Positions 3,522 to 16,096 of a DNA stretch of 64,000 nt are shown piece after piece. The stretch's first letter is position 1. Each line of letters begins with the position of its first letter. Both the position numbers and the translations under genes were made by a program. A model generated the notes under the pieces. The model ran no database searches, had not been told where the DNA came from, and saw only the letters and a program-made list of their open reading frames with translations. Source of the DNA: Gammaproteobacteria bacterium (GTDB lineage: Bacteria > Pseudomonadota > Gammaproteobacteria > Nevskiales > Nevskiaceae); assembly GCA_026398875.1 (NCBI GenBank), contig JAPLSB010000019.1:1-64000 (forward strand), written 5' to 3'.

Positions 3522-4475
3522 CTACTGCGGGATGAACTGGATCGGGTAGTCCATCGTGAATGCAGGCGCGTTCTTCGGCCCGAAGTTGATCAGCTTGACG
3601 CGTTCGACGATCTTCCGTTCGAACTCGGCATCGCCGTAGCTGCTCGACACCAGCGTGCACGAAGTCACCGAGCCGTTCGGTGCGATGGTCAACCGAACGA
3701 CGATCTTGCCGGCGCCGATGCTCGCGTTGTCGCGCGCGGCGCGATTGAAGATCGCGTAGAACGGACCCTGGTTGCGGTTGAACACCGCCTGCACTTCGCC
3801 CGGCGTGCGACCGCCATCGGGACCCGGCACGCCACCCTTCGGTGCGACGGTCCCGGTGCCGAGCGAGCTGCTGACCCTGCCGGTCGAGCGGTTGCCGACG
3901 CCAGCGCCAGTCTGTGTCGAGGTCACGTCACCACGGGCGCGGCCGATGCCGCCGCTGTTGGTCGACGCGGTGGCGGCAATCGCGGCCGCCGACGTACCGA
4001 TGCCGCTCTTCGACGTGATCGTCGCCGTGCTCAGCGGCTGATCGCTGGGCGCGATGTCCTGATCGGCAAGATCGCTGAGCTGGTTGGCCAGCGCCAGGAT
4101 GCCGGTCTTGGCCGCGACTTCACGCGCTGTCGGCTGCGGCTTGGTCGGTGTCACGGGCTTCTCGACCGGCTGCACCTTCGGCTTTTCGATCGGCTTGACC
4201 GGCTTCGGCTCTTCGCGCGGCTTCTCGACGAGCTTTTCGGCCGGCTTCGGCGGTGGTGGCGGCGGCTTGACCTCGGGCAACAGCTCGACGTACTGCGAGT
4301 TGTCGAATTTTTCGGGCTCGACCGGCAGTGGCTGCTGCCACAGCCGCGACGCGATGATCAGCACAACGGCTGGCACAAAGGTCGTCGTCGCGATGCGCCG
4401 GAAACGGCGATCGGCTTCGGCGCTGAGCTGCCAGGATTCCCAGCGAATGACGCGGGACATCGTCGAGGCGGTCAT
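3522..4475 (-). CDS. TonB/AgmX-like energy-transducing protein
   Basis: A 317-residue inner-membrane protein built like TonB. It has a cytoplasmic N-terminus, one membrane segment near residues 30-46 ([17 protein letters not shown]), then a long Pro/Lys/Glu-rich spacer with a run of six prolines around residues 70-75 that could span the periplasm. The C-terminal domain, about residues 215-317, contains [18 protein letters not shown], as in the AgmX/PglI/TonB-like C-terminal family. A Gly/Ser/Thr-rich stretch joins spacer and domain. The start codon overlaps the upstream exbD stop as ATGA at 4472-4475. Last gene of the motor operon, it likely carries force from the ExbB/ExbD complex to an outer-envelope partner. 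The partner is unknown, and no TonB-dependent receptor gene is nearby. Confidence 0.8.
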
Positions 4476-4999
4476 GGAGCGGCTCCGGCGCTGACCATCG
4501 AGCGACGGTTCACCGACAGCGAGATCCGCGCGAACTTGGCATCGCCACAGGTGGCCATGATCTTCTTCAGCAATGCGTAGGGAATGGCGCGATCGGCGAC
4601 GATGTTGATCTCGCCACGCGTGAGGTTGCCGCTGTCCTCACCCTGGACGGTGACCAGCGGTGCCAGCATCAGCCGATTCTTCAGTTCGTTCAGCACGGCA
4701 CCGGTTTCCGCCTGCGCCTGCTGCAGCGTCATCACCGTTTCGCCCTGCAGGGTGATGTTCTCGTTCGAAACGGTCAGCACCGGCGTGTCGTTCGGCGGCT
4801 GCGCCGATGCCGAAGACGGCAAGGTCAGCGCCTTCGGCGTGCGCAGCGTCTGCACCGTCGTCGAGGTGAGCATCAGGAAGATCAGCAGCGACGTGAAGAT
4901 GTCGATCATCGGCACCAGGTTCAGGCCGATCGCACCCGGTTCGTCGCGTCCAGCCCGGCGCAGGATGCGCTTGCGGATGGCTCTGTTGCGCAGGCTCAT
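4472..4999 (-). CDS. ExbD/TolR-family protein (second copy)
   Basis: 175 residues with the ExbD layout: a basic cytoplasmic N-terminus, one membrane helix near residues 25-48 (LVPMIDIFTSLLIFLMLTST), then a periplasmic domain. The membrane aspartate in the MIDIF segment is the proton-carrying residue of the family. This copy differs clearly from the first exbD gene, so the complex is probably built with two distinct ExbD subunits, as in the Myxococcus AglRQS motor. It overlaps the preceding exbD stop as ATGA (4996-4999) and the next gene in the same way. Family membership is strong; the substrate process is unknown. Confidence 0.88.
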   Translation of the reverse strand: MSLRNRAIRKRILRRAGRDEPGAIGLNLVPMIDIFTSLLIFLMLTSTTVQTLRTPKALTLPSSASAQPPNDTPVLTVSNENITLQGETVMTLQQAQAETGAVLNELKNRLMLAPLVTVQGEDSGNLTRGEINIVADRAIPYALLKKIMATCGDAKFARISLSVNRRSMVSAGAAP

Positions 5000-5505
5000 G
5001 GCTTGACTCCCGGTGCTGGTGCATCGCCGAGCGAGATCAGCGGGAACAGCTCCACGGTATCGGGACCGACCGAGGTCAGGTCGACACGCACGGCATCCAT
5101 CACCGACACCAGCACTTCATAGGCCACGCCCGGTTCTGACAGCAGCGTGATCTTCGATTCGGTCGGCAGCCGCTTCTTGGTTTCCTTCATCAGCTCGGCG
5201 AGCCCGGCGTAATCATGGGCGCCGTTGACCATCGGCACGGACTTGATCATGAAGCCGTTGTCGGTCAGCGACAGGTCGCCAGCCCGGATCAGCACGGCCA
5301 GGTTGTGCGGTGGCGGTTCGGCGGCGCTGGCGCTGTCGTTCGGCAGGTTGATGCCGAGGATCGACACGCCAATCGAGTTCACCAGCAGGAAGAACATCAG
5401 CACGGTCAGGATGTCGATCATCGACACCAGATTGAGTTCCGTGCTGCGCTTGCGCCGGACCCGGCGCAGTGCGCGCCGGGTTTCGCGGGAAATGCCCTGC
5501 ATCAT
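4996..5505 (-). CDS. ExbD/TolR-family protein (first copy)
   Basis: 169 residues. A strongly basic N-terminus (RRALRRVRRKR) precedes one membrane helix near residues 23-50 containing LVSMIDILTVLMFFLL, with the conserved membrane aspartate. The periplasmic part ends LGDAPAPGVKP. It lies 30 nt downstream of the ExbB-like gene and overlaps the second exbD by 4 nt, so the three motor subunits are co-translated. Proteins of this family convert proton flow through the ExbB pentamer into movement of the periplasmic domain. This is inferred from the family, not from anything specific here. Confidence 0.88.
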   Translation of the reverse strand: MMQGISRETRRALRRVRRKRSTELNLVSMIDILTVLMFFLLVNSIGVSILGINLPNDSASAAEPPPHNLAVLIRAGDLSLTDNGFMIKSVPMVNGAHDYAGLAELMKETKKRLPTESKITLLSEPGVAYEVLVSVMDAVRVDLTSVGPDTVELFPLISLGDAPAPGVKP

Positions 5506-5535
5506 CGGTAGCGTGTCCCCGTGTGCCGGACGTGA

Positions 5536-6168
5536 TTACTTCTTGAAGCCGAGGCTGTTCAGGAACTTGACCGAAGCGATTTCCAGGCTGTCGACCAGCT
5601 CGTCGGTCTTGGTGACCAGCCAGGCATGGACCAGCAGCAGCGGAATCGCGGTCATCAGGCCGAACGCCGTGCAGTTCATCGCCACGGCAACGGCCTGCGA
5701 CAGCTGGTCCTGCTTCTGCGCCGGGTTGACGCCGGACACGGCGGTGAAGCCCTGGATCAGACCGATGACGGTGCCGAGCAGGCCGAACAGCGTGGCGACG
5801 TTGGCGAACGTGGCGAGATAGTGGGTGCGACGCTCCAGCTGCGGCGTCACTTCCATCAGGCTTTCTTCCATCGCCAGCTCGACTTCGTCGCGGCCGGTCG
5901 CGCCGCGCGAGCGGGCGATGCCGTAGCCGAGCACACGGCCGATGGCGGTGGACGATTGCGACGCGACCTTCTCGGCCTCGTCGTGGCGACCCTCATTGAC
6001 CAGCGGCATCAGCTTCGACCAGACATCGCGGTTCTCGGCCTGCGCGCGGCGCAGGTACAGGACGCGTTCGATGGTGATCGCCAGGCCGAGCACGCCGACG
6101 ATGAGGATCGGGTACATGAATTCACCGCCGGCCTGGAAGAAGCGGATGACGGTGGAAAAGAACTCCAT
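5536..6168 (-). CDS. MotA/TolQ/ExbB-family proton channel
   Basis: 210 residues, normal for ExbB/TolQ. It has three membrane segments: near residues 17-36 (MYPILIVGVLGLAITIERV), 125-150 (TLFGLLGTVIGLIQGF) and 165-190 (GLMTAIPLLLVHAWLV). The second and third carry the small-residue Thr/Gly pattern that lines the proton path. It stands 68 nt after the Pro/Ala-rich gene and 30 nt before the first exbD. With two ExbD-type partners and a TonB-like protein it forms a full energy module. Nothing ties it to iron uptake; the neighbours are TPR proteins instead. Confidence 0.92.
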   Translation of the reverse strand: MEFFSTVIRFFQAGGEFMYPILIVGVLGLAITIERVLYLRRAQAENRDVWSKLMPLVNEGRHDEAEKVASQSSTAIGRVLGYGIARSRGATGRDEVELAMEESLMEVTPQLERRTHYLATFANVATLFGLLGTVIGLIQGFTAVSGVNPAQKQDQLSQAVAVAMNCTAFGLMTAIPLLLVHAWLVTKTDELVDSLEIASVKFLNSLGFKK

Positions 6169-6236
6169 GATGTTTCCTCGATTTACGGTTGCGTGACTAA
6201 GAAAGGCGCCGTCTGGGCGGGCCGGATGGAAGCTGC

Positions 6237-6815
6237 TTACTTGATTTCGCCGCGTTGCTTGCGGCGGTACTCGGTGATCGTTTCGTAGTACTCGATCTGA
6301 CGCCGGAACGTGGCCGGGTCGATGGGCTCCATCGCCTCATCGAGAAGGCGCGCCGGGCGGTCGAGACCGCGTTCGGCATAGTCATCCTTCCAAGGAGTGA
6401 TGTACAGGCCAATCGGCGCTTCCTGCTCACCGAATATCGTCGTGCCGACGCCATCCGGCGTCGCGGTCGTGACTGCCTGCGCCGGTGCAGGCTGCACCTT
6501 CGGCGCAGCGGTCGCCGCTGGTGTCACCGGCGTCGGCGTGGCGGCAGGTGCCGGTGTCGGATCGGCCGCAGCAGCAGTGGCACCTGGATTCGACCGGATC
6601 GTGATCGACGGCGCTGACAAGCTCGGACCCGCCGCGGGCGCCGGCGTCACCGGTGCCGCCGTCGGGGCAGGGGTTTCGGCCTGCTGCCGAGACGGATTCG
6701 CTCCCAACACCACCTGAGGTGCAGCGGGGAGTTGGGCGGCTGCGTCGAGCGACCACATTGCAACAAGCGCCAGCAGCAGTCGGCTGCGACGGGAACAGCT
6801 GAACGGCAGATTCAT
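6237..6815 (-). CDS. secreted Pro/Ala-rich protein of the motor operon
   Basis: 192 residues, function unknown. An N-terminal signal peptide (RRSRLLLALVAMWSLDAAAQ) likely cleaves after Ala-Ala-Ala near residue 25. A low-complexity Ala/Pro/Thr linker covers about residues 30-115. A compact charged C-terminus contains LYITPWKDDYAERGLDRPAR and a helical end EYYETITEYRRKQRGEIK. The start at 6815 gives an ATGA overlap with the preceding TPR gene; a longer frame exists upstream but overlaps that gene. Its fixed place just before the proton channel suggests a periplasmic adaptor between the TPR proteins and the motor. That is an inference. Confidence 0.7.
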   Translation of the reverse strand: MNLPFSCSRRSRLLLALVAMWSLDAAAQLPAAPQVVLGANPSRQQAETPAPTAAPVTPAPAAGPSLSAPSITIRSNPGATAAAADPTPAPAATPTPVTPAATAAPKVQPAPAQAVTTATPDGVGTTIFGEQEAPIGLYITPWKDDYAERGLDRPARLLDEAMEPIDPATFRRQIEYYETITEYRRKQRGEIK

Positions 6816-7528
6816 CGCGTCGCTCCGGTGGCGGCAGGGGCTGCAGCAGCACTCGGCTGCGGGGCCTGTGCTTCGAGTTCCTTGATCCAGGCCGCAACGA
6901 TCAGCCGGTCGCCGCCGGTCAGCCGCTGATACTCGCGGTAATGCTGCAGCGCCTCGGCGGGACGGCGCGTGTAGAGGTCGTGCAGTACGGCGAGATTGAA
7001 ATGCGCAGCAGCGTAGTCGGGCTTGATTTCGAGCGCCTTCGCGTACGCCGATTCGGCCTTCGCATAGTCGCGGCCTTCGCGGGCAATCAAGCCCAGCCAG
7101 TTCCACGCCACCGCGTTTTCAGGATTCAGGCGCGCGGCTTTCTCGAAATTGGCAACGGCCAGATCCGGCTGCTTCGACTGGTACTGGATGATCGCCAGAT
7201 CGGTGAAGGGGCCGGAGTACTGCGGGAAGTCCTTGGCCAGCTGCAGGAACGCTTCGCGCGCCTCCTTGACTTGCCGATCCTTCAGCAATTTCAGCGCCGC
7301 CGTGAAGCGGGCATCCGGATCACCCTTGCTGGCGCGCGTGGCTGCAGCGGCGTCGGTCGACGTTCCCGCATCCGCACTGGCGGCCGGTGCCGTCGCCTTT
7401 TCCGGCTTGCGGCTGGTGCCCGAGCAGCCAGCCGCCAGTGCGGCTACCAGCAGTGGCAGCAGCAGACGAGTGACCGACACCTTCCAGTGCATCTGCGGCT
7501 GCAGCGTCATGTCAACGCAGAGATTCAT
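6812..7528 (-). CDS. TPR lipoprotein
   Basis: 238 residues with an N-terminal lipoprotein signal (LLLPLLVAALAAGCSG; lipid-modified Cys near residue 35). Several tetratricopeptide repeats follow between about residues 80 and 215, for example PENAVAWNWLGLIAREGRDY and KPDYAAAHFNLAVLHDLYTR. The ATG at 7528 has a GAGGA ribosome site five bases upstream; alternative starts at 7510 and 7492 lack one. It overlaps the previous gene by 17 nt and the next by ATGA. A lipoprotein TPR scaffold next to an ExbB/ExbD motor is reminiscent of PilF-, AglT- or BamD-like assembly helpers. The partner is unknown. Confidence 0.8.
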   Translation of the reverse strand: MNLCVDMTLQPQMHWKVSVTRLLLPLLVAALAAGCSGTSRKPEKATAPAASADAGTSTDAAAATRASKGDPDARFTAALKLLKDRQVKEAREAFLQLAKDFPQYSGPFTDLAIIQYQSKQPDLAVANFEKAARLNPENAVAWNWLGLIAREGRDYAKAESAYAKALEIKPDYAAAHFNLAVLHDLYTRRPAEALQHYREYQRLTGGDRLIVAAWIKELEAQAPQPSAAAAPAATGATR

Positions 7529-10355
7529 AGCTGTCCTCGCGGCTTTCGCGCTTGCCGTACTTGGCGGGTGCCAACTCGCCGAGCGCCTTGACGCTGGCAG
7601 CGATCGACTTGTTCCACAGGTCCTGCTTCAGGCGCTTGAGGTTGACCTCGTGCGCCTCGATCGCCTTCTGGTCGAACGGGTCGGCCTGTTCCTCGATCAG
7701 CAGGTTGTATTGCTCGAGTTCCTCCGGCTTGAGACCGCGCGGACGCTCGGACTCGATCAGCGCCCGGCTGAAATCGCGGTACACCGTACCCAGCTCGTAG
7801 GTGGCGGCCGTCGTCGAATCCGCGAAACCGTACGCCGCCGCGCGATTGAGGGCCTGGACCGCCACTTCGGTCGCAGCCTTGCGGGCCGGAAGACTCTTCT
7901 CGACCGGCAGGCTCAGACGAATCGCGCGTGCATCCTGGGCCGCGGCCAGTCCGAGTTCCAGCGCCGCCTGTGCGCCGGCGAGCTTGCTGGTGTCCGTGCG
8001 CAGCGAACCGGCCGTCTCGTCGGCCTTGACCAGTTCGCGCAGCCAGTACAGGTAGCGACCGCGATCGCGCGTCTCGAGCGAGTAATCGGCCAGCCGGCGG
8101 CGACCGACGATGCCGCGTTCGATCGGCTGCGGGAAGTTGACGATGTAGAACTCGTAAGCCTTCGCGGCCTGCGGCTTCTGCTTCGCTTCGTCATACAGCG
8201 TCGCCGCCAGCCATGCGGATTCGCGGCGTGTATCGACCGCTTCACTCGGCCGTGTCGCAATCCGTTGCAGCGCGTTGGCAGCTTCGGCCGGCTTCCCGTC
8301 CTTCTGATAGGCGGCGGCAAGCTGCTTGTCGACGTCGGCAATCAGCTTGTTGGTCGGATAGCGGTTGCGGAAGCCTTCGAGCGTGGCCGTCGCTTTCGGC
8401 CAGTCTTCCAAGGCCAGATAGGCGCTGGCTGCATCGAAGTCGGCGTTCGGTCGAATGCTGGCATCCGGAACCGTTGCGCCAACGCGCAGGAAGGCATCGG
8501 CTGCCGCGCGCAGGTTGCCGCTGTCACGCGCCGCTTCTGCCTGCTTGTAGATCGACGCTGCCAGCTGTTCGACGACCAGCTTGCGCTCGCTGGCATTCGG
8601 CGCCAGCAGGGCAAGCAAGCGTCCGTAAGCGGCCTCGGCCTCCGGGTAGCGCGCCTGCGCGAAGCGCGCATCGGCGATGACCCCGAAGGCGATCTTGCGC
8701 TGGTCGGCGTTGGCTGGCGGGTTGTGGGCAATCAACCGCTCGGCCACCGCTACCGCTTCATCGGTCGCCTTGATCTCGTAGAGGTCCTGGGCCGCACGCG
8801 TGACGACCACCGACCATTGCGGATGCGCATCGAACGTGTCGGCCAGCTTGAGACTGGCATCGATGGACTTGCGCAGCGCGGCTGGGCGCTCCGCAGCGGC
8901 GACTTCCTTGGCAAGGCGCTGCCAGGCTTGCACGGCAGCGTAGGCCGCTTCCGGTGCCTTGCCGTGCTTGCCATAACCGTACGCGGTCTTCAGGTATTGC
9001 TCGGCCGCGTCAGCCGTGCGACCGCCGTCGTAAAGCGAATCGGCGTACAGCAGATTGACGTCGGCAATCTTCGGGTCGTTCGGGAAGTTGTCGAGGATCT
9101 TCTTGTACCAGCCAGCCGCCTTGACGAAGTTCGGCGCGTTGCCGGGCGCGGTGCCGGCCTGCGCCATCGCCTGATAGTGGCGGCCGAGGTCTTCCATGCT
9201 CTTGCGAAGTTCGGTCAGCACTTCCGGTGTCGGCGCGCGGCCGGACCAGTACGGTGCCGAAATTTCATAAGCGGTGACGTAGCGTTCCTTTTCGCGCACC
9301 ACGTAATCGTTGAAGCCGCCCTGGTCGTATGCCTCGATCACAGCGACCTGGAACTTCGGTGCACTCGGGTGCAACGGATAACGCTCGATGAAGGCGCTGT
9401 ACGTGAGTGCTGCATCACTGAAGCGGCGCTTCTCGACAAACAGATCGCCCAGCGCGTTGTAGACCAGCGGGTAGAAGCGCGGGTCACTGCCGGACTTCTT
9501 GAAATACGTGTTGATCGCACTGCCGCCAGTCTGCGCTGCGAACGCGAGGCTCACCACGCGCAAGCTCGACGAGGCCAGATCGGACTTTTCCTTCGGCACC
9601 GCAGCCAGTGCGGCATCCGGATCTTCCAGCTCGCCGACTGGCAGTTCGCGGTCGAGGATCGTGAAGAACACCGGCAGGCATTCGTCGTACTTGCTTTCCT
9701 TGAACAGCGTCCACCCGTACTTGTACTGCGCCGACTGGTAGAAGCTGGCGCCAGTGCCGAGACCAAGCACGAACGCGTAGTCCACTTCCGCTTCCGCGTA
9801 GCGACCCAGGTTGTAGAGCAGTTCGGCACGGCGGAAGCGCGCATCACCGATCAGGCTGGATTTCGGGTACTCGTTGGCCAGACGACGAAGCGTCGCGATC
9901 GCCTGTTCGGTCTGGCCGATGTTCTGATAGCCGCGCGACAGCTGATACAGCACGCGATCGTTATCGGGCGCACCTGGACGCTGCGACAGCAGCTGGTTGT
10001 AGGTCTGGATCGAGCGGTTGATCACCGCAGGATCGGTGTTGCCCTTGGCATCCTCGACCTGGATCTGCAGGTCGGCCTGACGGCGCAATGCTTCATTGCG
10101 AGTGTCGTCATCCGGCGAAAGCTTCAGGAGTTCCCGATAGTTCTGCAGCGCCTTGTCGGGATCAGGGGCAATTTGCTCGGAACGCACGACCGGCAGTTGG
10201 GTCTGCGTCGGTGCGGGCTGGCGCGTGATCGACCGGATCGGCGGCGCCGAATTCTTCGCGGCCGGTGCACTGCAGCCGGCGAGAAACAGCGCTGCCACGG
10301 ACGCAGCCAGCGGCAAGCCGTAGCCCGGGGTCCGCCGCAAGGTCGGGCGCGTCAC
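7512..10355 (-). CDS. large TPR lipoprotein
   Basis: 947 residues, the largest protein of the motor operon. It has a lipoprotein signal (ASVAALFLAGCSAP, Cys near residue 28) and then tetratricopeptide-like helical repeats almost throughout, such as PDNDRVLYQLSRGYQNIGQ near residue 110 and EYPKSSLIGDARFRRAELLY near residue 140. Start is GTG at 10355-10353, overlapping the upstream stop as GTGA. It resembles the long TPR proteins that accompany ExbB/ExbD genes in gliding-motility (AglT-type) and related operons. It probably forms a periplasmic solenoid linking envelope layers. The exact role is unknown. A 1,069-codon open frame on the other strand is a codon-bias shadow. Confidence 0.82.
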   Translation of the reverse strand: MTRPTLRRTPGYGLPLAASVAALFLAGCSAPAAKNSAPPIRSITRQPAPTQTQLPVVRSEQIAPDPDKALQNYRELLKLSPDDDTRNEALRRQADLQIQVEDAKGNTDPAVINRSIQTYNQLLSQRPGAPDNDRVLYQLSRGYQNIGQTEQAIATLRRLANEYPKSSLIGDARFRRAELLYNLGRYAEAEVDYAFVLGLGTGASFYQSAQYKYGWTLFKESKYDECLPVFFTILDRELPVGELEDPDAALAAVPKEKSDLASSSLRVVSLAFAAQTGGSAINTYFKKSGSDPRFYPLVYNALGDLFVEKRRFSDAALTYSAFIERYPLHPSAPKFQVAVIEAYDQGGFNDYVVREKERYVTAYEISAPYWSGRAPTPEVLTELRKSMEDLGRHYQAMAQAGTAPGNAPNFVKAAGWYKKILDNFPNDPKIADVNLLYADSLYDGGRTADAAEQYLKTAYGYGKHGKAPEAAYAAVQAWQRLAKEVAAAERPAALRKSIDASLKLADTFDAHPQWSVVVTRAAQDLYEIKATDEAVAVAERLIAHNPPANADQRKIAFGVIADARFAQARYPEAEAAYGRLLALLAPNASERKLVVEQLAASIYKQAEAARDSGNLRAAADAFLRVGATVPDASIRPNADFDAASAYLALEDWPKATATLEGFRNRYPTNKLIADVDKQLAAAYQKDGKPAEAANALQRIATRPSEAVDTRRESAWLAATLYDEAKQKPQAAKAYEFYIVNFPQPIERGIVGRRRLADYSLETRDRGRYLYWLRELVKADETAGSLRTDTSKLAGAQAALELGLAAAQDARAIRLSLPVEKSLPARKAATEVAVQALNRAAAYGFADSTTAATYELGTVYRDFSRALIESERPRGLKPEELEQYNLLIEEQADPFDQKAIEAHEVNLKRLKQDLWNKSIAASVKALGELAPAKYGKRESREDSYESLR

Positions 10356-12193
10356 TGAAGTTCTCCTTTCATCTGCTTGTCGTAGATCCGCGCCAATGCA
10401 AAGCGAGCCGAGATCAGATATTTCTCGGTGTAGCGGCGCTGGTCGGCGAGATTGTCCAGGGCCATCTTCTCGATCAGCTTCGACTGCCGTTCATTGAGCG
10501 CCTGGACTTGCGGCAACAGCACAGCGGCGCGCGACTTGAGGGCTTCGAGCTTCTCGTAAGGCCCGACGAATGCAGCCGCAGCTGGCGTCGCTGCGGTCTG
10601 CAACGGCAGCGGCGGCGCAGGAACAGCATCCACGGCGGCGCCACCACGATCTGCGGCATTCAGCGCGTCGCTGCTGCGCAGCGTGACCGACGGGGTCGGC
10701 ACGACAGGGGCAGCGGCAGACTGCTCTGGGTCACTGGTGAGGCGGCGAGCGACAAGGCTGTCGGTCGACACTTCTGGCAGCTGGCCGCCGATCCGGACCG
10801 CCTTCACTTCGTCGGCACGCTTGCCCCAGAGCTCCAGCGTGCGCTTCAGCAGCAGCAGGTCACGATAGTTCTTGAGCTGTTCCTGAAAAGGATTGCTGCT
10901 GATCAAGCTCTGCAGGTAATAGGTTTCGTCGGCATCCGGCAGGTCCTTCAGTTCCCACGCCCAGCCGGACTCGGCGTTGTATGTGCGGCGCACCATGGTG
11001 GCGACCATGCGGCCGCTCTTCACGTAGTAGCTCGATTCGTTGATGCGCTTCAACGACGCTTCAAGTGCCGCGATCGCCTGTTCGTAGAACTGCTGCGACT
11101 GCAGATGCGCACCGAGGCGATCGAGCGTGTAAGGAATGGCGAGCATGCCTTCCTGCACCGACGGGTCGATCGGATCGCGTCCGACCAGCTCCAGCCACGG
11201 AACCAGCGCCCGCTTCAGCGCGTCTTCTTCGCCGGCCGCCGCCTTGGTCAGCTTGAACGAGTTCAGACCGGCACGCCGATAGGTATCGTCATCGGCAAAG
11301 CCAGGACGAAGCAGGACACCGATCGTCGACAGTGACTTGAAAAGGTCAGCGGCCACGGATGTGCCATCGGCAAACTTGTCCTGCTTCTTGCCGGTCGGCG
11401 CCAGATAAGACCAGCCGAGACCGAGCAGCGCACGATTCGAGAACGGCCCCACGCTGCGAATGCGCTGGAACACGTTGATGGCGGTTCCGGCTTGCTGCAG
11501 GCGCAGGAAGTGATAACCGAGCACCAGATTGGTCTTGTCGCGCAGCGCCAGCTCGTCCTCATTGGCGGCATCCATCTGGCCGACGCGATCGAGCATGGAA
11601 ATGCCTTCACCGACGCGGCCGTCTTTGACCAGTGCGATACCGAGGTTGTAGCGCGTGAATGCCTGCTGCGGGCTGGTGTCCTTGATCGCGTTCAGCACTG
11701 ACACCGCTTCACCGTAGCGACCTTGCGCAAGCAGCGTGCGACCGAACAGGTCTTGCCATTCGACGAACGCCTCTTTCGGTACGGCCGGCCGGACCGCTTC
11801 GAGATCAGCGATCGCCTGGCGAATGCTGCCGCGCCGGTACAGATATTCGGCAACGCGGATTCGCGCGCGGGCTACCGATAGCGCATTGCTTCGATCGATC
11901 GCCAATTCGCGATAGATGGTCTCCGCGCGCTGGGTCACGCCGAAGTTCAGCGTGGCATCCGCAAGCCGGCGATAGAAGGCCTGAGACAGACGCTGAGCCG
12001 GTTTCTCGGCGATGACTTCGAGCAATTCCGATGCAGCCGAAAAATAGCGCTGGTCGCCAATCAGAAAGTCGGCAGACCGCACGCGCGGGTCCGTCTCTCC
12101 CCCCGGCGCATAACGGTCGATCGCAACAGCGGGCAGAGACGCAGCAACAAGTGCCGCCAGACAGAGCTGGCGGAGGGCAGGCACGCGAGTCAC
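10352..12193 (-). CDS. secreted TPR-repeat protein
   Basis: 613 residues with a cleavable signal peptide (LCLAALVAASLPAVA, cut near residue 24). Helical repeats of TPR type cover the N-terminal half, including AFTRYNLGIALVKDGRVGEG near residue 180. The C-terminal third holds a Pro/Ala-rich linker and a long charged helix ending near the C-terminus (LARIYDKQMKGELQ). It starts with GTG at 12193 in a GTGA overlap with the preceding gene and ends in a GTGA overlap with the next. It is the second gene of the motor operon, probably periplasmic. No enzyme motif is visible. Confidence 0.78.
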   Translation of the reverse strand: MTRVPALRQLCLAALVAASLPAVAIDRYAPGGETDPRVRSADFLIGDQRYFSAASELLEVIAEKPAQRLSQAFYRRLADATLNFGVTQRAETIYRELAIDRSNALSVARARIRVAEYLYRRGSIRQAIADLEAVRPAVPKEAFVEWQDLFGRTLLAQGRYGEAVSVLNAIKDTSPQQAFTRYNLGIALVKDGRVGEGISMLDRVGQMDAANEDELALRDKTNLVLGYHFLRLQQAGTAINVFQRIRSVGPFSNRALLGLGWSYLAPTGKKQDKFADGTSVAADLFKSLSTIGVLLRPGFADDDTYRRAGLNSFKLTKAAAGEEDALKRALVPWLELVGRDPIDPSVQEGMLAIPYTLDRLGAHLQSQQFYEQAIAALEASLKRINESSYYVKSGRMVATMVRRTYNAESGWAWELKDLPDADETYYLQSLISSNPFQEQLKNYRDLLLLKRTLELWGKRADEVKAVRIGGQLPEVSTDSLVARRLTSDPEQSAAAPVVPTPSVTLRSSDALNAADRGGAAVDAVPAPPLPLQTAATPAAAAFVGPYEKLEALKSRAAVLLPQVQALNERQSKLIEKMALDNLADQRRYTEKYLISARFALARIYDKQMKGELQ

Positions 12194-12744
12194 GAGTTCG
12201 GTCTCCAGTCGCGCAGGCGGATCGTCGCCGGCTTGCCGTAAGCGGCAATGCTGATCAGTATTTCAAGGTCGCTGGGCTTTACGGTCTTGTCGAACACGCC
12301 TTCGTAGCGCGCGCGCATCGCCGGCGTACCGGGCTTGGCATCGACGTAACGACCGCTGAACTCCACACGAATCCGATGGCTGCCCGGTGTGGTGTTGAGA
12401 CGCAGCGCACGGTAGAGCCCGCGACGTTGCAGAGCAATGGATTCGATGACGTCGAACTTGCGCACGGTCGGCGCAGCGTTGTCGACAGTGATGATCACGT
12501 CTTCGACAAGCATGCCCGGTGCATCGACCCCGACATAGATCGAGACCCGTGTTTCATCGGGGTACTGCAGTGCCGCTTCGGCACGCGTTGCGCCCTGGTT
12601 CAGATCGAGCACTTCCGCCTTGAGCGCTTGCAAATCGCGATCGATGGCCTGCATTTCGTCTTGTTGCGCTGCAGCTCCACAAGCCATGGGCAGGCATGCA
12701 ATCAGCGCGCACCACGGTGCGCGGTTCGACGGACGAAAGGGCAT
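12190..12744 (-). CDS. secreted coiled-coil protein, first gene of the motor operon
   Basis: 184 residues of unknown function. The N-terminus carries a signal peptide (ALIACLPMACGAAAQQ); cleavage after Ala-Ala-Ala is as likely as lipid attachment at the Cys, since the lipobox is poor. A short coiled coil follows (DRDLQALKAEVLDLNQ), then a beta-rich region with RVSIYVGVDAPG, HRIRVEFSGRYVD and KPATIRLRDW that may be a small sandwich domain. ATG at 12744. An 82-nt gap to the gloB stop upstream must hold any operon promoter; I saw no convincing -35/-10 pair. The stop overlaps the next gene as GTGA. Confidence 0.7.
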   Translation of the reverse strand: MPFRPSNRAPWCALIACLPMACGAAAQQDEMQAIDRDLQALKAEVLDLNQGATRAEAALQYPDETRVSIYVGVDAPGMLVEDVIITVDNAAPTVRKFDVIESIALQRRGLYRALRLNTTPGSHRIRVEFSGRYVDAKPGTPAMRARYEGVFDKTVKPSDLEILISIAAYGKPATIRLRDWRPNS

Positions 12745-14953: not shown

Positions 14954-16096
14954 TTACTTGCCTGCTTTCTTGGCAGGCTTGATGGCCGCGTCCTTCGACT
15001 TGCGCGACGATTCCTCGTTGTAGACCTTGAGGTACTCGGTAGCGCCCATCAGCCGGAATTCGACGCGCCGATTGTCGGTGCGACCTTCCGGTGATTCGTT
15101 GCTGCTGATCGGACGCGATTCGCCGTAGCCTTTCGCCGTAACGTTCTCTGCCGGAACACCCTTGCTGACCAGATAGGCTTTCACCGCGTCGGCGCGCTTC
15201 TGCGACAGCTTGAGGTTGTAGGCATCGCTGCCCAGGGAGTCGGTGTGTCCGCCGACTTCCAGCTTCAGGTTCGGCTGCGACTTGAACACGGCGGAGATCT
15301 CGTCGATCGAGGCCTTCGACGGCTCGGTCAATGCGGCGGCATCGAACACGAAATTGACGGCACGCAGCACGATCGTCTGGGTGATCACGCAGCCATCGGA
15401 ATCGACCTTCAGGCCCTTCGGCGTGTTCGGGCACTTGTCCAGCGCGTCTTCCACGCCGTCACCGTCGGTGTCGATCCGCGGCGGGATCACGCAGGTCGCG
15501 CAGACCACCGGAGCCACTTCAGCCACCTTGACAGGCAGCGGCGCGCGGGCGCCGCCGATCTGCCAGGTCACGCCGAAGGTGTATTCGACGTTGTCGATCG
15601 ACGGGCTGAAGCCGATCACGTGCCGGATATCGGCGCGCAGCGCGAAATCGTCCGACACGAAGTACTTGAAGCCGCCGCCGTACTCGGCGAGCGACTTGTT
15701 GGTCTTCGGCCGGTTCAGATCCGGAACGGTGACGTTGTAGCGGCCGAAGCCGATCGCCGCGAACGGCACGAACTTCTTGGTTGGCTGGAAGTGGTACAGC
15801 AGGTTGCCGCCGAAGCGATAGACATCGCGTTCGACATTGGCATCCGGTCCAGAGCTGCGGTCGGATTCGGTCAGCGCGTAGCTGCCGAACAGTTCGGCGC
15901 CGACATGGGCGTTGAAGTTGTAGCCGGCACGGATGCCGAACAGTGGTGCCGACTCGAGATCCTGCTTGGAGTCGAACAGGTAGCCGCCGACGAACGGCGT
16001 CAGCGTCCAGGCCTCCGCCCGGTTCTGGGCCTGAGCAGTCGAAGCGATACCGAGCAGCGATGCGCCGAGCAATCCGGCTTTGATACTTGAATTCAT
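14954..16096 (-). CDS. OmpA/OprF-type outer-membrane protein
   Basis: 380 residues. A signal peptide (LGASLLGIASTAQAQN) is cleaved near residue 23. Residues about 25-185 form an eight-stranded beta-barrel (RAEAWTLTPFVGGYLFDS; FALRADIRHVIG). A calcium-type thrombospondin-3 linker follows (DTDGDGVEDALDKCPNTP near residue 210). The C-terminal OmpA domain contains LEVGGHTDSLGSDAYNLKLS, whose Asp binds meso-diaminopimelate, and ESRPISSNESPEGRTDNRRV. It tethers the outer membrane to peptidoglycan. The tail is lysine-rich (KKAGK). It sits between rnhA and dnaQ, on the opposite strand, 44 nt from the ice-binding-like gene. Confidence 0.92.
   Translation of the reverse strand: MNSSIKAGLLGASLLGIASTAQAQNRAEAWTLTPFVGGYLFDSKQDLESAPLFGIRAGYNFNAHVGAELFGSYALTESDRSSGPDANVERDVYRFGGNLLYHFQPTKKFVPFAAIGFGRYNVTVPDLNRPKTNKSLAEYGGGFKYFVSDDFALRADIRHVIGFSPSIDNVEYTFGVTWQIGGARAPLPVKVAEVAPVVCATCVIPPRIDTDGDGVEDALDKCPNTPKGLKVDSDGCVITQTIVLRAVNFVFDAAALTEPSKASIDEISAVFKSQPNLKLEVGGHTDSLGSDAYNLKLSQKRADAVKAYLVSKGVPAENVTAKGYGESRPISSNESPEGRTDNRRVEFRLMGATEYLKVYNEESSRKSKDAAIKPAKKAGK

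Follow-up and report, generated by a model that had tools for sequence, protein, structure and literature searches.

The closest described systems to the one reported here are built around the AglRQS motor of Myxococcus xanthus. Luciano et al. (2011) grouped gltC, gltD, gltE and gltG with aglR, aglQ and aglS as a 'core complex' of unknown function. According to the parts of that paper compared here (PMC3169522), the core complex is clustered in one genomic region in Geobacter and in bacteria outside the Deltaproteobacteria, including Gammaproteobacteria that do not glide; it is thought unlikely to power motility alone, and carries one additional gene without a homologue in Myxococcales and Bdellovibrionales. 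Here we analyze a block of nine genes in a 64-kb stretch of a Nevskiaceae genome (contig JAPLSB010000019.1, positions 1 to 64,000; "the window" designates this whole stretch), whose gene content and AgmX/PglI domain (NF033768) match those of the Glt/AglRQS core complex. The block likely encodes a real envelope motor, well conserved and of a kind that has been described but not characterized, and its general mechanism, as set out below, is likely too. Two points should interest specialists, the Asp/Asn pattern of the two ExbD proteins and the linkage of the system to outer-membrane and redox genes.

The nine genes all lie on the minus strand, from 12744 down to 3522, in the order X1-gltC-gltD-gltE-X2-aglR-aglQ-aglS-gltG (Table 1), and the same-strand block proposed in the initial annotation was confirmed from the open reading frames. 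Six of the eight joints overlap, by 4 bp (X1/gltC, gltC/gltD, gltE/X2, aglQ/aglS and aglS/gltG) or 17 bp (gltD/gltE), and two are gapped (68 bp between X2 and aglR, 30 bp between aglR and aglQ). The overlaps suggest that the nine genes are co-translated; a promoter and terminator scan of the block gave no excess over shuffled sequences (0 against a mean of 1.5, and 6 against a mean of 8.2). One ExbB-type and two ExbD proteins were found, as had been claimed, with matches to PF01618 (93.6 bits) and PF02472 (49.6 and 69.8 bits), and the TonB/AgmX-like protein matched NF033768 (50.3 bits against a cut-off of 40) and, barely above the cut-off, TonB_C (25.4 against 24.6). TPR families were likewise found in all three of the presumed TPR proteins, of which only GltD matched the lipobox pattern, the signal peptides of the others being judged by eye. 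X1 and X2, the two secreted proteins put forward as of unknown function, gave no match at a curated cut-off.

Table 1. Genes of the nine-gene block, in order of transcription (positions in the window)
Gene	Position	Strand	Length (amino acids)	Description
X1	12190..12744	(-)	184	Secreted; predicted long helix and immunoglobulin/transthyretin-like beta sandwich; no named family
GltC-like	10352..12193	(-)	613	TPR families; core-complex position; export judged by eye from the N-terminus
GltD-like	7512..10355	(-)	947	TPR lipoprotein; TPR_6, YfiO; lipobox pattern at 25
GltE-like	6812..7528	(-)	238	TPR_2 and others; possible lipoprotein (AAGC; strict lipobox pattern unmet)
X2	6237..6815	(-)	192	Secreted, Pro/Ala-rich; conserved C-terminal stretch around GTTIxGxxExPIGLYIxPW
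AglR	5536..6168	(-)	210	ExbB/TolQ/MotA-type channel protein, PF01618; Thr133 and Thr173
AglQ slot (first ExbD)	4996..5505	(-)	169	PF02472; Asp31
AglS slot (second ExbD)	4472..4999	(-)	175	PF02472; Asp33
GltG-like transducer	3522..4475	(-)	317	One transmembrane helix, Pro/Lys-rich linker, AgmX/PglI-TonB C-terminal domain

The combination of AglR with two ExbD proteins, three TPR proteins and a PglI-type transducer in a single region is also that of the core complex, which in the parts of PMC3169522 compared groups three TPR proteins and a TonB-like transducer with one ExbB-type and two ExbD proteins; the core complex carries one additional gene, whereas the window has two conserved small secreted genes, X1 and X2. 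The suggested likeness to AglRQS is thus supported by the family matches and by the published core complex. The motor is not undescribed, however, since the same set had already been named in that paper; the Asp/Asn pattern, the motorless copies and the redox and outer-membrane neighbours reported below do not figure in its parts compared. The Agl-Glt gliding machinery of M. xanthus has the same types of motor and inner scaffold, but its genes are scattered over several clusters instead of forming a single operon, and none of its Group A genes (gltA, B, F, H, I, J, K) was recognized among the nine. The tie of the window proteins to the M. xanthus proteins rests on the published trees (PMC3169522, in part).

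The conservation of the block was assessed in 274 genomes sampled evenly across the class Gammaproteobacteria and spread over its families, with profile cut-offs of E ≤ 1e-30 for GltD and E ≤ 0.001 for X1 and X2. The GltD profile matched 63 of these genomes; GltD is also present in 46 of 61 relatives. From 53 of the 63 we read 59 loci (L164-L222; six genomes twice), hereafter the class sample. The genes present keep the same order in 59/59 of these loci, and all nine are present in 34. Among named loci, 80 in number but 79 as counted (L154 gave no match), 74 have the canonical order; by open reading frame start, five of the 79, and three of 40 nearer loci, depart from it. The initial annotation had envisaged a profile search for the block across gammaproteobacteria and the outcome that its genes are never together; the recurrence of one order throughout the class sample speaks against that outcome, and a chance cluster was dropped as an explanation for the same reason. 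A broken Ton operon was also considered and dropped. Nevskia and other Nevskiaceae supply the closest named relatives of the locus, and a search of plasmids with the GltD-like protein gave no match.

The two ExbD proteins often differ in a residue of the motor. AglS has, in 137/137 loci, the Asp to which the proton binds in ExbD/MotB. Of 139 loci, 56 have Asp in the AglQ slot and the other 83 have Asn, with no third residue, these counts containing duplicates because the named and the G-numbered loci share species. In the class sample, Asn occupies the AglQ slot in 46 of 47 readable clusters and AglS has Asp in 47/47; no AglQ could be read in 12 of the 59 loci. Asp is found in AglQ and AglS alike in the window and its near relatives. 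A quick-method tree built on AglR, AglS and GltD, with 100 rows and several long branches, requires three or more switches between Asp and Asn. Thr133 of AglR is present in all 140 rows with a known AglQ state, the window included, and position 173 is variable (T, V, A, C, S or G). Mean pairwise conservation was 46% for the Asn-type AglQ and 45% for AglS, and the three Asn-type AglQ proteins scanned all scored above the ExbD cut-off.

With the D28N substitution in AglQ, M. xanthus loses proton conductance and its machinery is paralysed, according to the part of PMC3858216 consulted. That Asn occurs naturally where this same change is dead in Myxococcus suggests a heterodimer in which a single carboxylate is functional. 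On the simplest reading, AglQ would pair with AglS, AglS conducting and AglQ being structural; for a gammaproteobacterial AglQ/AglS heterodimer with a single carboxylate we see the chances as evenly balanced. Doubtful, in our view, is the broader proposal of an obligate heterodimer in which only AglS has Asp, forming a one-carboxylate 5:2 motor that mechanically drives a flavin/multihaem redox assembly whose genes share the operon; under it the window lineage would have kept or regained the second Asp. No natural Asn in AglQ was reported in the parts of PMC9389320, PMC9120999, PMC12505986 and PMC12204202 consulted, or in a wider search outside of which most subscription papers fell. The presence of Asn in the AglQ slot of nearly all class-sample clusters, and never in AglS, provides comparative evidence for unequal roles of the two ExbD proteins, and makes the question of these roles testable.

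We consider it probable that the block encodes a proton-driven motor of the core-complex type that moves an outer-membrane assembly or puts it under tension, and a force-driven process at the envelope, as first guessed, is still the best general reading. We infer the proton drive, the stoichiometry, the heterodimer, the physical contacts and the cargo as follows. Together with AglQ and AglS, at a presumed 5:1:1, an AglR ring would form the proton-driven motor in the inner membrane and move GltG, a transducer with a single span. The Pro/Lys-rich arm of GltG would cross the periplasm and engage the exported TPR scaffold, made of GltC, GltD and GltE with X1 and X2 as accessory proteins, and the scaffold would in turn pull or shift the outer-membrane assembly. 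Such a machine would be of the AglRQS-Glt core-complex kind, short of a full gliding machine. In relatives, its likeliest cargo would be barrels of the outer membrane together with flavin/haem redox partners; for the window organism, OmpA-type proteins would be the first candidates.

The candidate cargo emerged from the genes around the block in relatives. Outside the Nevskiaceae the operon often begins further upstream, with genes for an SH3-barrel protein, an OMP_myx_plus barrel, a thioredoxin, DUF4266, DUF3570 and ApbE that precede X1-gltG on the same strand and with small gaps. A gene of this module was found on the same strand within 6 kb upstream in at least 29 of the 59 class-sample loci, as scored with profiles built from the same loci; the count is a lower bound because many stretches end 2-5 kb upstream. 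Further upstream, each of the three large lipoproteins that were scanned combines a hydrazine-synthase-alpha-like domain with two or three CXXCH haem motifs, and beta-propeller repeats exceed the cut-off in two of them. A second type of upstream set includes two proteins identified by eye, one LamG-type and one Tat-type, the former having two CXXCH motifs in eight of nine members (Pfam checked on one). The predicted fold of a 533-residue Tat-type neighbour had a mean pLDDT of 37.5 and was not used.

Across the class, DUF3570 was found in 52/63 genomes with gltD but in 18/211 others, DUF4266 in 48/63 and 17/211, and OMP_myx_plus above its curated cut-off in 41/63 and 0/211, in counts uncorrected for ancestry from a sample spread over families. 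ApbE, DUF3570, DUF4266 and thioredoxin make up a known flavin electron-transfer cluster (PMC8238504, in part), and many core complexes are immediately preceded by these genes; the main text of that paper makes no mention of ExbD, TPR or gliding. OMP_myx_plus may include the M. xanthus GltA or GltB, a conjecture based on what the family is called and on the sizes and order of the genes; a literature search on TIGR04565 found nothing. The best OMP_myx_plus match of the window genome, an OmpA-family beta-barrel gene at 14954-16096 of the window, is below the cut-off (54.5 against 60 bits). The linkage of barrel and flavin/haem genes to a system present in 63/274 class genomes provides concrete candidates for the cargo of the core complex. 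That the motor is mechanically linked to the redox proteins is a tentative proposal, which we hold to be somewhat less likely than not.

The same co-occurrence of barrels with gltD could be expected if GltG were a specialized TonB that gates an outer-membrane barrel (of the OMP_myx_plus, DUF3570 or OmpA type) for import or export, helped by the TPR proteins. The TonB_C match in GltG is in line with this, and the window shares with ExbBD-TonB and TolQRA the motor families and the C-terminal TonB fold. It differs from them in having two different ExbD proteins and a TPR scaffold, no receptor, and no His in the transmembrane window of the transducer. The His of the SHLS motif in the transmembrane helix is the motor-binding motif of TonB and TolA (PMC12204202, in part), and the best transmembrane window of GltG is devoid of His in the window protein and in 104 of 111 sequences. 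No TonB-dependent receptor was found in the 64-kb window, the genome having 19 places with one, the nearest at C21:70651. Equivalog scores were all under the cut-offs, for TonB (16.9 against 315 bits), ExbB (39.0 against 206.2), ExbD (22.5 against 152.95) and TolQ (57.2 against 221), and a separate TolQ is encoded at C21:275626 (268.5 bits against the same cut-off of 221). The block therefore stands apart from TonB and Tol, as the initial annotation held, and we regard the TonB-like importer or exporter as unlikely. Searches of solved structures with the ExbB and ExbD proteins returned TolQ, TolR, ExbB and ExbD chains and a few chance matches, none named AglRQS. The window genome has 15 places of the MotA/TolQ/ExbB family, and several motors of this class thus coexist in it.

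Fibrobacter succinogenes offers a point of comparison. On cellulose, FSU_2400-2403 (ExbB, ExbD, ExbD and TonB) and the nearby OmpA/TPR genes FSU_2396-2398 rise, and FSU_2396 and FSU_2397 have been reported to form a complex with cellulases and a fibro-slime protein (PMC6851124, in the part consulted). Its authors hypothesized that FSU_2400-2403 serve the Ton transport of cellodextrins, which favours the importer just discussed. From gene content and the survey of Luciano et al., FSU_2396-2403 would appear to be the Fibrobacter core complex, and the data fit a scaffold that organizes outer-membrane assemblies facing insoluble substrates.

The window genome (G000) holds a second block, at G000:C24, in which gltC (fused to X1), gltD, gltE and X2 are followed by no motor genes; its GltD is 46% identical. 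The nearer set has 10 such motorless loci, and for seven of them (in G000, G017, G018, G021, G028, G030 and G043) a motor-bearing copy was also read in the same genome. The class sample has eight, a count that leaves out L197 and L200, at contig ends. Four second copies (L045, L046, L048 and L049) have their own motor. In M. xanthus the Agl motor quits Glt and binds the paralogue Nfs (PMC3858216, in part), and a motorless copy with a motor-bearing one parallels the way in which Nfs takes over AglRQS. The Agl-Nfs sporulation machinery, like the window genome, thus has a motorless scaffold copy beside a motor-bearing system; motor sharing was shown in Myxococcus, and the motorless copy of the window genome would by analogy borrow the motor of the nine-gene block.

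Within the window's taxonomic order, the surroundings of the two kinds of copy differ. Around the 10 motorless copies we found OmpA in nine, an FMN-binding gene in seven, PepSY in six and ApbE in three, against OmpA in two of 20 motor-bearing loci and the other three in none. The OmpA-family genes, together with the pairing of ExbB/ExbD with exported TPR proteins, could point to a stabilizer of the outer membrane or of cell shape akin to Tol-Pal. This we find highly improbable, as the genome has a separate TolQ above the cut-off, and a presence in 63/274 class genomes is patchy for an envelope housekeeping system. Other genes near the motorless copies include globin (10/10; L043 and related loci), DUF3034 (9/10), an ANTAR regulator (8/10) and an NMT1-like gene (7/10). 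Beside one of these copies (L043, 14491-15879) a protein joins an OmpA domain to a cupredoxin-like domain.

Nevskia makes slime, which would suit a machine for motility or surface transport that glides or moves a surface polymer such as slime, as Agl-Glt and Agl-Nfs do. In addition, the homologous core powers both the gliding of M. xanthus and the transport of its spore coat (PMC3858216, in part). However, no polysaccharide gene was seen among the neighbour families scanned, and Luciano et al. judged the core insufficient for motility (PMC3169522, in part). A role in motility or surface transport is therefore quite improbable, though less so than the Tol-Pal-like stabilizer.

Several observations weigh against a core-complex motor acting on barrels and redox partners. 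The GltE and GltG equivalogs are far under their cut-offs (32.7 against 225 and 17.2 against 650 bits), and it is because of these scores, and of the reliance on published trees for the tie to M. xanthus, that we file the block under the core complex rather than the gliding machinery. NCBIfam gave no match to a GltC or GltD model, the existence of such models in it being left unchecked, and a Pfam-type domain scan found no FHA domain in the window GltG, unlike the GltG of M. xanthus (PMC3169522, in part). The window copy is placed between an apparent gloB upstream and an apparent fabI downstream (same strand, named by eye). Profile searches found neither DUF3570 nor DUF4266 in the window genome, and OMP_myx_plus only below the cut-off; the redox link is for this reason a property of the relatives. 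Even there, DUF3570 is missing from 11/63 gltD genomes, and OMP_myx_plus at E ≤ 0.001 occurs in 46/63 of them but also in 36/211 others (82/274). No upstream module gene was found in 30/59 class-sample loci, many of the stretches ending 2-5 kb upstream. Three motor-bearing second copies (L045, L048 and L049) also hold some redox neighbours, so that the redox neighbours of second copies may reflect inherited synteny within one order. Finally, the fusion of X1 to GltC described below is seen in 0/59 class-sample loci.

X1 and X2 are restricted to gltD genomes, a new result: in the class genomes X1 was found in 61/63 and X2 in 60/63 of those with gltD, and neither in any without it. Within 9 kb of a gltD match lie 71 of 81 X1 matches and 72 of 74 X2 matches. 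The AlphaFold2 model of X1 (mean pLDDT 92) has a helix of 37 residues (24-60) and a beta sandwich. Compared by fold with the PDB, X1 gave nothing at E ≤ 0.001; the best match had an E of 2.2e-3, the first four had TM-scores to the query of 0.30-0.40, and this likeness to an immunoglobulin/transthyretin-type sandwich was not accepted as homology. By sequence X1 had no match among solved structures, and the family scan returned only DUF3138 (12.1 bits against a cut-off of 27.3). The family scan of X2, run with the first residue omitted, had no match; P141 and W142 are invariant in the 34 rows of its alignment.

A single open reading frame encodes both X1 and GltC in 31 loci from the two nearer sets, including the second copy of the window genome; aglR was present in the stretch in 16 of the 31 and absent in 15. 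This fusion suggests a contact between the two proteins. The window genome also encodes another GltC-like protein, the third (L163, G000:C15, 2879-10017), which has an X1-like domain and whose gene is preceded by genes for an outer-membrane protein and an RND/MMPL-type transporter, as named by eye. M. xanthus gliding requires the transglycosylase AgmT (PMC11444678, in part). In seven loci (L070, L071, L077-L080 and L082) a protein of 350-490 residues, by eye possibly an MltD-like lytic transglycosylase, is encoded upstream next to X1 or GltC.

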